A program made the position numbers and the translations under genes. From the IMG/VR virus record IMGVR_UViG_3300029319_009044, positions 1-64,000 of that record: DNA of 64,000 nt; one strand, written 5' to 3'. Below the pieces are notes generated by a model. It was not told where the DNA came from. It saw only the letters and a program-made list of their open reading frames with translations, and ran no database searches. Of the stretch, positions 6,221 through 11,089 are shown in pieces; position 1 is the first letter of the stretch, and every line of letters begins with the position of its first letter. Source of the stretch: a virus.

Positions 6221-7201
6221 TTACTTAGCTCTATATTTCTCTACGTAATATTTAACTGTTGATGATAAATTAAATTTATTTTGCTTCTTTACTGATTTAA
6301 GATTATGTTTTGAAGAAAGCTGGTATTTAAAGTCGTGTCCTTTTCTATCTTGAACGAATTCTAAGTAGTCACTTCTCTTTCTTTTATAATTAGGAAATTG
6401 ATGTTCGATCTCTTTAATGACTTTTTTAATTAATTCAAGATTATTACAAACTAAATTACCTACAATATTATATATTTTAGCAGGTACATCATCAAACAAT
6501 ACCTCTATAATTGCTTTTGCATGATCTTGAGCATGTATCCATTCTCTTATATTTTTTCCATTACCATACACAGGTACTTTTTTACCAAGTATTACTGATC
6601 TTATTATAGTAGGAATTAATTTTTCATCGTGTTGTCTAGCTCCATAATTATTACAACATCTAGTAATAGAAGCATCTATTCCAAAAGTAGTAACATAAGA
6701 TTGTACTAATAAGTCTGATCCAGCTTTAGTAGCTGAGTAAGGTGACCTAGGGGCTAAAGGACTATCTTCAGAAAAAGGAGGATCATCTTTGTCTAAATGA
6801 CCATACACTTCATCTGTAGATACATGTATCATTCTAGCTTTATGCTTCCTAACTAATTCTAAAATTTTAGAAGTGCCTACCAAATTAGAGTCAACAAAAG
6901 ATAATGGATTATCTATAGATCTATCTACATGAGATTCTGCTGCTAAGTGTAGAACATAGTCTATTTTTTTATCGATAAATTCTAAAGGATTAGCCATGTT
7001 AAGTCTCCAATGTTCATCATTAGATATATCTATAAAATGATTTTGTACTCTTTCGTCTTTTACTATATTTTCTGCAGAAGAACCTACTCCCATTTTATCA
7101 ATATTGTATATAAAAAGCTCTTTATCTTTTAGTTTTAAAAGCTCTTTAATAACATATGACCCAATAAAGCCACATCCCCCGGTTACTAGATATGTACTCA
7201 T
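6221..7201 (-). CDS. rmlB: dTDP-glucose 4,6-dehydratase (RmlB-like)
   Basis: A 326-residue extended short-chain dehydrogenase. The NAD-binding glycine motif GGCGFIGSY is at 8-16. HLAAESHVDRSI at about 85-96 is characteristic of this dehydratase. The catalytic TDE triad (129-131, in STDEVYG) and the Y155-x3-K159 pair are intact. The length is close to bacterial RmlB (about 330-360). It should convert an NDP-glucose, usually dTDP-glucose, to the 4-keto-6-deoxy sugar. It is the last gene of a tightly overlapping operon with a cytidylyltransferase and an RmlD-like reductase, which suggests deoxysugar synthesis for virion or host surface glycans. The nucleotide specificity is inferred. Confidence 0.85.
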   Translation of the reverse strand: MSTYLVTGGCGFIGSYVIKELLKLKDKELFIYNIDKMGVGSSAENIVKDERVQNHFIDISNDEHWRLNMANPLEFIDKKIDYVLHLAAESHVDRSIDNPLSFVDSNLVGTSKILELVRKHKARMIHVSTDEVYGHLDKDDPPFSEDSPLAPRSPYSATKAGSDLLVQSYVTTFGIDASITRCCNNYGARQHDEKLIPTIIRSVILGKKVPVYGNGKNIREWIHAQDHAKAIIEVLFDDVPAKIYNIVGNLVCNNLELIKKVIKEIEHQFPNYKRKRSDYLEFVQDRKGHDFKYQLSSKHNLKSVKKQNKFNLSSTVKYYVEKYRAK

Positions 7202-7638
7202 TTCTTTTTAACTATATCTGGATTTTGTTTTATAGTTTGCAATGTAATCAAATCTTTTATTCTAGTAGTTGACCACTCATGAGATCTTGTGGTATAAATT
7301 ACTCTAGGTGGTAAGTCATCTCCTGTAAATGGTTTAGCTATATAATCTTCTCCTAAGATACGAATGTCAGGTTTAAAGAATTTTATTAAATCATATAACT
7401 CTTCTTCGGTTTGATACATATAGACTTCGTCTATATACTGAATTGCCATTAAAGTCTTATATCTCTCATAATACGGTATTACAGGCTTGTATTTAGTATA
7501 TCTAGTTGAAGAAGGGTCTTTTTGCAAAAAGACTAAAAATCTATTACAATGTCTTTTAGCTTCTTCAAAAGTATAAATATAACCCGGGTGAAGTAAGTCG
7601 AAACTTCCAGCAGTAAACCCTACAATTTCTTTATTCAT
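7198..7638 (-). CDS. Cytidylyltransferase-like nucleotidyltransferase
   Basis: A 146-residue protein of the TagD/RfaE-type nucleotidyltransferase fold. FTAGSFDLLHPGY (8-20) is the N-terminal signature; the usual HxGH is HPGY here, so the second His is a Tyr. ILGEDY (94-99) and STTRIKDLI (123-131, the ISSTxIK-type motif) are present. The family activates small phosphorylated alcohols or sugars with CTP or ATP. It overlaps RmlB by four bases and the RmlD-like gene by eight, so it should serve the same glycan pathway. The substrate cannot be told from sequence, and the Tyr substitution makes catalysis somewhat less certain. Confidence 0.7.
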   Translation of the reverse strand: MNKEIVGFTAGSFDLLHPGYIYTFEEAKRHCNRFLVFLQKDPSSTRYTKYKPVIPYYERYKTLMAIQYIDEVYMYQTEEELYDLIKFFKPDIRILGEDYIAKPFTGDDLPPRVIYTTRSHEWSTTRIKDLITLQTIKQNPDIVKKK

Positions 7639-8491
7639 CCAATATTATTTTATTCAGAGCGGAATGAATAGCAAGTTCTTCATCCATAGGGTCAAAACCA
7701 TATTTAGTTTTTAATTTATCTACTGAAAGAACACAATTAGACCTATTAGCTAAACAATTTAGTTCATCAAATTGAACCCATTTCCATTTATCATTACCTA
7801 ATCCATATTCATCCATAAGCTCTATTATATTATCAGTAGCTAGAGGATTAGGCTGTACAAAATTTAATATATCTTTTTCTTTTGTTTCAACTTTATTCTT
7901 AATTACTTTCTCAATAAAATCTAACAATTGTGGAATGTAAGTTTTAGAATTTTTTAAATTTATAAGATTATTGTATTTTTTAATTTTAGTTAAGTAAGAT
8001 CGTTCATGTAACCTATCACAGAAAGGCATTCTTACTCTTAAAATTAATCCATGATCACATCCTAATTCAAATGCATGTTTACTTTTTGAATATGTAGAAG
8101 ATTCTCTATCAAAGAATCCAAAGTTAGGATAATCTTCTTCATTGAATTCTTTAGTATAATTAGTATATATGCAGCCTGAAGATATATGAATATAATTAAT
8201 ATCATAAGCTTTACATAAATTACTAAGCTTTAAAGGTGCAAAGGTATTTAATTCATAGCATAGCTCAGGTTTTCTTTCTCCTTCATCTACATTTGGTCTA
8301 CCAGTAAAACCAAAACAATTAATTACATAATCAAATTTTTCTCTTTTAAACCATTTTATAAGTTCTGATGAATTAGTATAATCAAGAAACTCTTTTCGTA
8401 CTATAGTAACATCGCTCTTTTCAATTTTTTTAAGACGTCCATAAAGGTAAGAGCCTACATATCCATGTCCAAGTATAAGTATTTTTTGCAT
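7631..8491 (-). CDS. NAD(P)-dependent sugar epimerase/reductase (RmlD-like)
   Basis: A 286-residue Rossmann-fold protein of the RmlD/epimerase superfamily. GHGYVGSYL (8-16) binds the dinucleotide, VINCFGFTGRPNVDEGE matches the region after strand 4, and SSGCIYT with a downstream YSKSKHAFE supplies the Ser and Tyr-x3-Lys catalytic residues. RmlD reduces dTDP-4-keto-rhamnose. The length and the NVDEGE segment fit that group, but a different nucleotide sugar is possible because no RmlC or RmlA homologue is visible here. It starts one base after the GMP reductase gene ends. Confidence 0.7.
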   Translation of the reverse strand: MQKILILGHGYVGSYLYGRLKKIEKSDVTIVRKEFLDYTNSSELIKWFKREKFDYVINCFGFTGRPNVDEGERKPELCYELNTFAPLKLSNLCKAYDINYIHISSGCIYTNYTKEFNEEDYPNFGFFDRESSTYSKSKHAFELGCDHGLILRVRMPFCDRLHERSYLTKIKKYNNLINLKNSKTYIPQLLDFIEKVIKNKVETKEKDILNFVQPNPLATDNIIELMDEYGLGNDKWKWVQFDELNCLANRSNCVLSVDKLKTKYGFDPMDEELAIHSALNKIILDE

Positions 8492-8492
8492 A

Positions 8493-9533
8493 TTAAATCT
8501 CTAATGTATTAGGTTCGTATATTTTACTATGTGTCTTTGTACATCTTACAAATGTAGCACACTTGCATAAATGTTTAAGCTTAGCAGCTCCAACATATGT
8601 ACATGTACTTCTAATACCTCCTAAAATATCTTGAACAATATAACGAATGGGTCCTTTATAAGGTATAACTACTCTTCTTCCTTCCGATGTTCTATAATCT
8701 TTGAGACCTCCATTATGCTTATCGTTAGCAATTTTGCTACTCATTCCATAAAACTCAACATATTCTTTTCCATCTATTATAATTTTCTCACCTCCACCTT
8801 CAGGAGAACCAGCTAACATAGATCCGAGCATTACAAAGTCTGCGCCAGCTCCAAACGCTTTAGCTACATCACCCGGCGTCGTACATCCACCATCAGCAAT
8901 TATATGACCATCTAAACCATGAGCAGCATCAGCACATTCAGCAATACAACTAAACTGAGGATAACCAACTCCTGTCTTAAGTCGAGTTGTACAGACACTT
9001 CCTGATCCAATACCTACTTTAATAATATCTGCTCCAGCTAAAAGTAGCTCTTCAACCATTTCACCCGTAACAACATTACCTGCTATGATATTACTTTTAG
9101 GAAAAGTTTTTCTTACTTCCTTTACAAAGTCGACAAGTGCTTGAGTATAACCATTCGCTACATCAATACATATATTACGTACTGAAGCTTTTTTATAAAT
9201 ACGAGATAATTTCTTGTAATCATATTCATTTCTTCCTACAGTTACAGCTACATGCTTACCTTTATTATCTTTAAGCTCTTCAATAAGCTCCTTTTCATCA
9301 ATGTCCTTCTTGTAACAAGTAAAGAGATCTAGATCACTTAAGGTTCTTCCTACGTCTAACGTACCAACACCATCCATGTTAGCAGCCATTATCGGTATAC
9401 CGCGGTATGAACCACCGTATTTGAATCTAAAAGTTCTTGTTAAATCCACCTCTTTACGAGATGTTAACGTAGACCTTTTAGGTCTAATCAACACATCATC
9501 GAAATCGTACTTTAATTCAGTTTCTATACGCAT
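8493..9533 (-). CDS. guaC: GMP reductase
   Basis: A 346-residue, CBS-free member of the IMPDH/GMPR family, the length expected for GMP reductase. [15 protein letters not shown] (9-23) opens the barrel. The active-site loop [16 protein letters not shown] places the catalytic Cys at 181 and the assisting Thr at 183. [20 protein letters not shown] is the phosphate-binding part and EFYGMSSK the flap. The enzyme reductively deaminates GMP to IMP using NADPH, feeding guanine into the adenine branch. In an AT-rich phage this could shift the purine pool toward dATP. It is the first gene of an operon with three nucleotide-sugar genes. A TATAAT lies nine bases before the ATG. Confidence 0.9.
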
Positions 9534-9565: not shown

Positions 9566-9769
9566 TCAACTTGATATCTTGTCTCTTATCAACTGTAAGT
9601 TAATTTCTCCTTCTTCTAAACTATCGGAGATTTGTTGAGTTAATTCATTTCCTAGTTCGCTAAGTTCATAATCTTCTGTACTATGCAAAACTTCAGTTAA
9701 TTTATCTAACGCATCATATAATTCTTCTACACCCACTTCAAATTTTTTAAGAATTGAACTTTGTTTCAT
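9566..9769 (-). CDS. Small coiled-coil late protein (67 aa)
   Basis: A 67-residue, mostly helical, acidic protein (VEELYDALDKLTEVLHS and QQISDSLEEGEINLQL) that could form a short coiled coil. No family is recognised. A TAAATA six bases before the ATG marks it as late. It is transcribed divergently from the superoxide dismutase gene with only 30 bases between the two start codons. A structural or assembly role is possible, but nothing in the sequence shows it. Confidence 0.6.
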   Translation of the reverse strand: MKQSSILKKFEVGVEELYDALDKLTEVLHSTEDYELSELGNELTQQISDSLEEGEINLQLIRDKISS

Positions 9770-9775
9770 ATATTC

Positions 9776-9781
9776 TATTTA
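9776..9781 (-). promoter_or_regulatory. Late promoter TAAATA of the 67-aa gene
   Basis: Minus-strand TAAATA, six bases before the ATG. It is back-to-back with the dismutase promoter; the two motifs are seven bases apart. Confidence 0.6.
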
Positions 9782-9787
9782 TTTTAT

Positions 9788-9793
9788 TAAATA
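9788..9793 (+). promoter_or_regulatory. Late promoter TAAATA of the superoxide dismutase gene
   Basis: TAAATA with six bases to the ATG at 9800. It places an oxidative-stress enzyme under late control together with virion genes. Confidence 0.65.
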
Positions 9794-9799
9794 TAATTA

Positions 9800-10426
9800 A
9801 TGACGTTCTTAGAAGAAGTAAACTTAATTTTAGAAAAAGTTGGTCAGTATAAGCCTATCAACTTACCTTACAAATTAAATGCATTAGAGCCAGTAGTTAA
9901 CAAGCAAACTACTGACTTTCATTTTAACAAGCATTATAAGGGGTATGTTAAAAAATTAAATGCAGCTATGGGTGCTAGAAAAAAAATACCTTTGGTAGAG
10001 TTAGTTAAAAATATAAAAGGTTACAATGATAAAGTAAGAGATAATGCTGGAGGAGCTTATAATCATCAATTATTTTTTAACATGATGAAGCCAGGGGGTA
10101 GTGACTTTAACGGAGAGATTGCTGATAGAATTAAAAAACGTTTTGGTACATATGCTAAATTCAAAAAAGAGTTTATTGATAATGCAGCAAGTCAGTTTGG
10201 TTCAGGGTGGGGTTGGTTAGTTGAAAAAGATGGTAAATTAGATTTAGCAAAGACACCTAATCAAGATAATCCACTAATGCATAATATGGGTAAGCCTATA
10301 TTAGGTGTTGATGTATGGGAGCATAGCTACTACTTAATGTATGGACCAGATAGAAAAGAATGGCTAAGTAAGTTTTTCGAGATTGTTAACTGGGATTACT
10401 GCTCCGCTCTTTTGCATACTAGCTAG
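9800..10426 (+). CDS. sodA: Superoxide dismutase, manganese-type
   Basis: A 208-residue Fe/Mn superoxide dismutase with all four metal ligands: H41 (DFHFNKHYKGYV), H89 (AGGAYNHQLFF), D171 and H175 (GVDVWEHSYY). GSGWGWL and the C-terminal VNWD are conserved. The GG before YNH, the Phe after it and the Gln in NQDNPLM are the residue choices typical of manganese enzymes rather than iron ones. It dismutates superoxide to oxygen and peroxide in the cytoplasm, or in the virion if packaged. There is no signal peptide. A late promoter drives it, so it acts near assembly or lysis. The last 63 bases overlap the convergent nuclease gene. Confidence 0.92.
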   Translation: MTFLEEVNLILEKVGQYKPINLPYKLNALEPVVNKQTTDFHFNKHYKGYVKKLNAAMGARKKIPLVELVKNIKGYNDKVRDNAGGAYNHQLFFNMMKPGGSDFNGEIADRIKKRFGTYAKFKKEFIDNAASQFGSGWGWLVEKDGKLDLAKTPNQDNPLMHNMGKPILGVDVWEHSYYLMYGPDRKEWLSKFFEIVNWDYCSALLHTS

Positions 10427-11089
10427 GATAGCTTCTATTTCTGCTTTCATATAGTTTACATGATAAGTCAAAAATCTATCATCTTTAAGATAAAAAATAA
10501 CACATTTTCTACATCTCTTACTTGTCATTCTTTCATACAAGTAAGCATATAAAGATAGTTGTAGACCATATAAATTAAATTCACAGTTATGAAGATGACT
10601 CACTGGGTCTTTAAGTCTTTCACAATAAGAAGAGCTAAATCTAAAACGCTTATTAGTTTTAAAGTCGCCAATAGTAAACTCATTTTTATGTTCGTAAATT
10701 AAATCTGCAGTACCAGCGATCTTAAACTCTTCATCATATAATAAATTCTCACACAAAACATTCTTAAAAGAATCTATAGAACGTTCAGCTGCTTTATCGT
10801 ATGATTTACATAACCAACCATAATTATCTTGTACATCGCCATAACTAATATAATCTTCTAAAATTTTATGAATATTAGTACCTCTCGTACAAGCTCTTAC
10901 CTTTTCTTTCTCCCACATTTCAAGAACTAACTCTTGTGATATACCTTCTCTATCTGCTACTCGTTTGGAATGTCCATCTCTATCAAAAGGTTGTTTGTAT
11001 TTACCGAGTAGAGTAGTTACGGAAATAAACTTTTCATTTGTATCAGTATGAGTATACGTATGAGAAGCTTCGTCAAATTTAATTTTCAC
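10364..11089 (-). CDS. PD-(D/E)XK nuclease, Cas4/RecB-like
   Basis: A 241-residue nuclease with the Cas4/RecB-type order of motifs: RGTNIHKILEDYI (69-81, His motif), DEEFKIAGTADLI (119-131, with Asp129), IGDFKTNK (140-147, the D-x-K core at 142 and 144) and YGLQLSLYAYL (174-184, the Gln-Tyr motif). Such enzymes are metal-dependent DNA exonucleases used in recombination, end processing or host DNA degradation. No four-Cys iron-sulfur cluster arrangement is obvious, unlike in true Cas4. The start is GTG at 11087-11089 with a TATAAT ten bases upstream. Its 3' end overlaps the dismutase gene. Confidence 0.8.
   Translation of the reverse strand: MKIKFDEASHTYTHTDTNEKFISVTTLLGKYKQPFDRDGHSKRVADREGISQELVLEMWEKEKVRACTRGTNIHKILEDYISYGDVQDNYGWLCKSYDKAAERSIDSFKNVLCENLLYDEEFKIAGTADLIYEHKNEFTIGDFKTNKRFRFSSSYCERLKDPVSHLHNCEFNLYGLQLSLYAYLYERMTSKRCRKCVIFYLKDDRFLTYHVNYMKAEIEAILASMQKSGAVIPVNNLEKLT

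Follow-up and report, generated by a model that had tools for sequence, protein, structure and literature searches.

The question raised by this locus is why a T4-like phage would make a superoxide dismutase (SOD) together with its virion proteins, and where such an enzyme would act. The window analyzed here is a stretch of 64,000 bases contained in an IMG/VR virus record of 170,908 bases (IMGVR_UViG_3300029319_009044, hereafter G000), which carries T4-type genes for sheath, tube, portal, terminase, major head protein, ssb, PhoH, and the late sigma factor gp55. No close cultured relative was found among the matches listed, in which identity to known phages peaked at about 38% for terminase and about 34% for the head protein. 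No near match was found for the first 25 kb of the window. The SOD gene is flanked by two genes on the opposite strand, as follows.

9800..10426, plus strand: SOD gene, 208-residue precursor (PF00081 and PF02777 over cut-off; ligands and second shell mapped; purifying selection)
9566..9769, minus strand: divergent neighbor, 67-residue protein with a late-class promoter (orthologs in the same place in the related genomes G004 and G005)
10364..11089, minus strand: convergent neighbor, PD-(D/E)XK exonuclease (phrog_298, 4.7e-37; PF12705), overlapping the 3' end of the SOD gene by 63 bases

The divergent 67-residue protein has no Pfam or PHROG match. The PD-(D/E)XK exonuclease family is likewise convergent with SOD in locus L068. 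A run of nucleotide-sugar genes with an IMP dehydrogenase/GMP reductase-like gene lies beside the SOD gene on the minus strand (window 6221-9533).

Judged from its sequence, the gene encodes an apparently intact and constrained Mn-type member of the Fe/Mn SOD family. Both Pfam domains matched the 208-residue open reading frame over cut-off (Sod_Fe_C [PF02777], 8.6e-34; Sod_Fe_N [PF00081], 4e-20), and the closest PDB entry by sequence was the MnSOD 1jr9 (1e-51), while a PHROGs search with this protein gave no match. Mapping on Salmonella SodA placed the metal ligands at H41, H89, D171, and H175 and found the Mn-type residues G84-G85 and the water-coordinating Q155 to be present; the claim of the initial annotation that the four ligands and Mn-type residues are intact is therefore confirmed by mapping, Pfam, and the PDB match. 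The second shell is unchanged at H45, Y49, N88, W137, W139, W173, E174, and Y178 and differs from the reference at two positions (W85 to F93 and H31 to Y46). An AlphaFold model based on 15 alignment rows was mediocre (pLDDT 71.5, with residues 1 to 41 unusable), and Foldseek searches with this moderate model returned MnSODs.

The bacterial Mn-type subfamily SodFM1 is defined by the C-terminal water-coordinating Gln (PMC10172142), and a Gly two residues before the Asp ligand goes with Mn preference (Sendra et al. 2023, PMC10172142). The phage enzyme shares with SodFM1 the fold, the metal ligands, Gln155, and this Gly (G169, present in 54 of 59 viral SODs and replaced by Cys in the other 5). Unlike SodFM1, it has an N-terminal extension with an [LI]xE triplet and has Tyr46 at the position of the final His in HxxxHH, and it groups with viral sequences, apart from sampled bacterial SODs. 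Tyr46 is a general difference between viral and sampled bacterial SODs, and its invariance is partly a search effect, because one search pattern contained HYKGYVK. The ligands, Q155, gate residues, and most of the second-shell residues checked are identical in 59/59 aligned viral sequences. In the close clade, dN/dS of the mature part is ~0.045 (37 pairs with usable synonymous divergence), indicating strong purifying selection.

SOD had been described as rare in phages, which holds for cultured phages but not for uncultured ones. Only 28 of 50,697 cultured-phage records match SOD, and most of these are bacterial contigs. Bacterial-looking contigs among the matches include OR845917, OR846594, OR850395, AGRM01000004, AFYI01000005, and MW462191, so phage SOD counts from such collections are inflated. 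Cultured phages carry only distant SOD forms, and no fused SOD was found in them. The SODs of the cultured jumbo phages (the PA5oct/MIJ3 group and Vibrio phage 2.275.O) also belong to the Fe/Mn family but are just 25 to 32% identical and may not belong to the clade described below; that of Vibrio phage 2.275.O has no leader. In uncultured viral contigs, by contrast, a scan of IMG/VR with two patterns derived from the phage SOD alignment found 403 loci, of which the best 80 were kept. The phage-alignment scan of bacterial species genomes returned just 10 loci, mostly archaeal. In a quick tree, with a pattern-chosen viral set and limited bacterial sampling (Bacteroidota genomes, plasmids, and bacterial contigs from the phage collection), 59 viral SODs form one clade (support of 99) apart from the sampled bacterial SODs. 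Twenty close relatives have a conserved promoter.

The region upstream of the SOD gene contains two divergent promoter elements.

9788..9793, plus strand: TAAATA late promoter element, -12 from the SOD ATG, with a predicted transcription start at 9799 (register, T4 geometry, relatives)
9776..9781, minus strand: second TAAATA, -12 from the start of the divergent 67-residue gene (CTATTTAT, conserved in relatives)

In T4 late promoters, TATAAATA occupies positions -13 to -6 relative to the transcription start (PMC1524935). TAAATA is found 11 to 12 bases before the start codon of 51 of the 189 genes in G000, SOD included, compared with an expected 0.4, and is rarely found elsewhere upstream. Genes with the element in register include those for sheath, tube, portal, adaptor, and prohead protease, whereas early-type genes (DNA polymerase, ssb, primase, and gp55) have TATAAT where late genes have TAAATA. 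The same register is used in the related genomes G004 and G005 and is kept before SOD in nearly all close relatives (-15 in L026). G000 also encodes a gp55-type late sigma factor (phrog_234, 1e-25). The late class proposed by the initial annotation is thus supported quantitatively and on broader grounds than those first given, and the sequence places SOD in that class with the virion genes. Given the position of TAAATA and T4 geometry, late mRNAs would be leaderless or nearly so, and that of SOD is predicted to start at the ATG or one base before it; no Shine-Dalgarno peak was seen among G000 genes. An early sigma-70 promoter for SOD was rejected: a TATAAT overlaps the late element at -8, out of register, and a TTGAAC at -46 lies too far upstream of this TATAAT.

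Internal head proteins with a tag are a classical feature of T4, and the N terminus of the phage SOD suggests a tag of this kind.

9800..9835, plus strand: codons 1 to 12, MTFLEEVNLILE, predicted capsid-targeting propeptide with a predicted cut after E12 (sole start; site shared with viral leaders; invariant residues)
9836..10423, plus strand: predicted mature SOD, residues 13 to 208 (from the predicted cut and the SOD fold)

Met57 is the first in-frame ATG, GTG, or TTG after codon 1, and the LPY motif of SOD begins only at residue 22. The extension MTFLEEVNLILE-KVGQYKPIN must therefore be made. In the bacterial SODs sampled, the N terminus usually lies a few residues ahead of LPY. The first 12 residues, preceding the predicted cut, end in I10-L11-E12, an L/I-x-E triplet. 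In T4, the prohead protease gp21 cuts after L/I-x-E, and N-terminal propeptides of 10 to 19 residues target internal proteins to the head (PMC9026906). A strict [LI]xE occurs 6 to 14 residues before LPY in 44 of 48 distinct viral leaders, with four lacking it, versus 3 of 38 bacterial sequences. Viral leaders span 12 to ~160 residues, and the position of the site before the SOD domain is nonetheless kept. Leaders in the close clade change faster than the mature part (dN/dS, ~0.24), with F3, V7, L11, and E12 invariant. N-terminal [LI]xE triplets are enriched over all G000 proteins (29 versus 17.8 expected; 1 of 500 shuffles). The SOD leader does not appear closely similar in sequence to that of T4 IPIII, in which residues 4 and 7 have no clear counterpart here; the likeness is one of pattern enrichment only. 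The site motif is short, and the mature SOD contains further L-x-E triplets, LVE67 and LVE142, that folding would need to protect. A signal peptide was rejected, as the leader is acidic.

Elsewhere in G000, a protein cluster at 84090-92047 (L003:90-8047) has look-alike leaders (MKKFKQFFAE, MKTFREYFEE, and MKFDDLVKRIIEE), and by this resemblance its members are candidate packaged proteins. The SOD homolog of the cultured phage PA5oct (EST35_0261) has ISIAE before its SOD domain, and its record bears the note ESI-MS/MS; the note is second-hand, and its presence on the neighboring FtsH makes carry-over from host cells possible.

A protease of the type that cuts such sites in T4 is encoded by G000 (gp21-type prohead protease; phrog_207, 3e-56; 118434-119099) and also by G004 to G007, four other genomes with this SOD, which is fused in two of them. 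The T4 scaffold is fragmented by cuts at L/I-x-E sites (PMC9026906). No gene of G000 is denser in [LI]xE than the putative scaffold gene (119202-120113), whose 15 sites are 2.3 times the number expected from composition; by the same measure, the gene at the scaffold position comes first or second in G004, G005, and G006. The density of such sites in the putative scaffold independently supports [LI]xE as a cleavage site in this phage.

In one large subgroup of the viral sequences, SOD is embedded in a longer protein, whose length ranges from about 360 to 960 residues.

L084:5935-7494 and L105:5569-8028: examples of fused SOD genes (within L076 to L119)

In many fused SODs, the residues E, G[IV]D, and QxK are conserved in a C-terminal domain, the model of which (pLDDT 85.8) gave weak but consistent matches to PD-(D/E)XK nucleases (best E value, 3e-3), and a nuclease of this type is predicted. 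Other fused SODs have an N-terminal part with an HEWxH motif that Pfam did not recognize. Most fused forms have [LI]xE both before and after the SOD domain, that is, with sites at the joints. In the three loci checked, a helicase gene precedes the fused gene and a head-tail adaptor gene comes next or one gene further on.

The best explanation, and probably the correct one, is that SOD is a capsid-targeted internal head protein that would be trimmed in the prohead, ejected with the DNA, and protective at the start of infection. From features visible in the sequence (an apparently intact and constrained enzyme, the promoter register, a late sigma factor, a prohead protease, and a forced extension with its motif), packaging, cleavage, ejection, catalytic activity, and benefit may be inferred as follows. 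The gp55-type sigma factor would transcribe SOD alongside virion genes into an almost leaderless mRNA, and translation would yield a precursor of the enzyme that has a 12-residue capsid-targeting propeptide at its N terminus. This propeptide would bring SOD into the prohead scaffold core, where the gp21-type protease would cut after I-L-E12 to leave mature SOD inside the head. On ejection with the DNA into a newly infected cell, SOD would remove superoxide and thereby shield both the incoming DNA and the onset of infection. It may have an additional action within the capsid.

The initial annotation offered protection of assembly, of the dying host, or of the virion, and took late timing to argue against early help. 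Among these three roles, the 12-residue leader ending in a protease site favors the virion, while the argument from timing does not follow. T4 internal proteins, which are mostly ejected and act at the start of infection (PMC9026906), provide the precedent, and an SOD made late would be active from the outset of the next infection if it were packaged and ejected, so late timing is no bar to early help. A benefit of injected SOD is plausible, as a sodB mutation in Campylobacter cut the plating of a T4-like phage to 0.30 (PMC6024767).

The T4 internal proteins IPI to IPIII and Alt (PMC9026906) resemble the phage SOD in having a short N-terminal leader ending in L/I-x-E, late expression, and a gp21-type protease in the genome. 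They differ in that the cargo here is an antioxidant enzyme, the leader sequence is different, and packaging and ejection are predicted for SOD. The vaccinia A45R protein of the lateral bodies (PMC9282662) is also a viral SOD homolog, is carried by the particle, and is delivered to the host cell, as would apply to the phage SOD if packaged; it has an unrelated Cu/Zn fold and belongs to a poxvirus, and the comparison is an analogy only. Phage SODs are already known in databases, and no description of a packaged one was found in the literature searched. With respect to that literature, what appears to be new is the combination: SODs of one lineage bear a prohead-protease leader, and in the fused forms the site falls at the borders between domains.

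The preferred reading can be extended to the lineage as a whole, although this wider proposal is tentative and slightly likelier to fail than to hold. T4-like phages would load a dedicated SOD lineage by means of a tag removed by the prohead protease, with one subgroup making a polyprotein with a nuclease and sometimes a protease-like domain, which the protease would separate. The product would be an antioxidant injected at the start of infection.

The main rival, which seems unlikely, is a late SOD acting in the cytoplasm of the dying host, where it would guard replication and assembly from superoxide, the extension serving for stability or partner contact. The late promoter alone fits this explanation, and SOD is normally a soluble cytoplasmic enzyme. 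It accounts for the promoter but not for the conserved site, as it leaves unexplained both the constant position of [LI]xE ahead of the SOD domain in leaders of varied length and similar sites at the joints of the fused forms. A packaged SOD could instead act only in the free particle, guarding packaged DNA from photochemical superoxide in water. The same packaging evidence (the leader sites and the density of sites in the scaffold) applies, but T4 internal proteins are mostly ejected (PMC9026906) and the lower plating on the sodB host suggests an intracellular role (PMC6024767), which makes this restricted role quite improbable. A purely structural use of the SOD fold as a core or partner protein, with catalysis dispensable, is more doubtful still: catalytically inert SOD-like proteins are known in leporipoxviruses, according to work cited in PMC9282662, but the ligands, Gln155, and gate residues are identical throughout the viral alignment. 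Finally, although several phage-database SOD matches are bacterial contigs, the idea that the gene is there by chance (as a contaminant, a decaying copy, or a recently acquired host gene) is hardly credible given the conservation across many phage contigs, with 20 close relatives keeping the promoter, orthologous neighbors in related genomes, the low dN/dS, and the single, well-supported viral clade.

If internal packaging and ejection of SOD are correct, an enzyme usually filed as an auxiliary metabolic gene would be an injected effector, and assigning roles to auxiliary metabolic genes would require attention to targeting tags in addition to the enzyme name. Superoxide would then matter in the first minutes of phage infection, in line with the drop in plating on the sodB mutant (PMC6024767). 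The cleavage-site rule can also be applied at little cost to test other uncultured T4-like phages for packaged cargo.

Several other features of G000 and its relatives were observed. Genes for CsgF, CsgG, and a repeat protein with late-type promoters are located at 140391-142570 (L005:16391-18570), and pelagimyophages have a curli cluster like the CsgF/CsgG genes of G000 (PMC7029224). A tmRNA gene is located at 164252-164661 (L007:252-661; Rfam RF00023, 133.7 bits), and G004 has a predicted tmRNA as well, close to its ortholog of the gene next to the G000 tmRNA. Adjacent DUF1549/DUF1553 and DUF1501 genes with a late-type promoter are found at 159564-162507 (L006:15564-18507). Genes of these families are typical of planctomycetes and relatives and are a possible clue to the host. 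A second clue may come from locus L030 (JAJTEO010000009.1), a contig binned with a Fluviicola genome that carries a viral-clade SOD with ILRE in its leader and is perhaps a phage contig.
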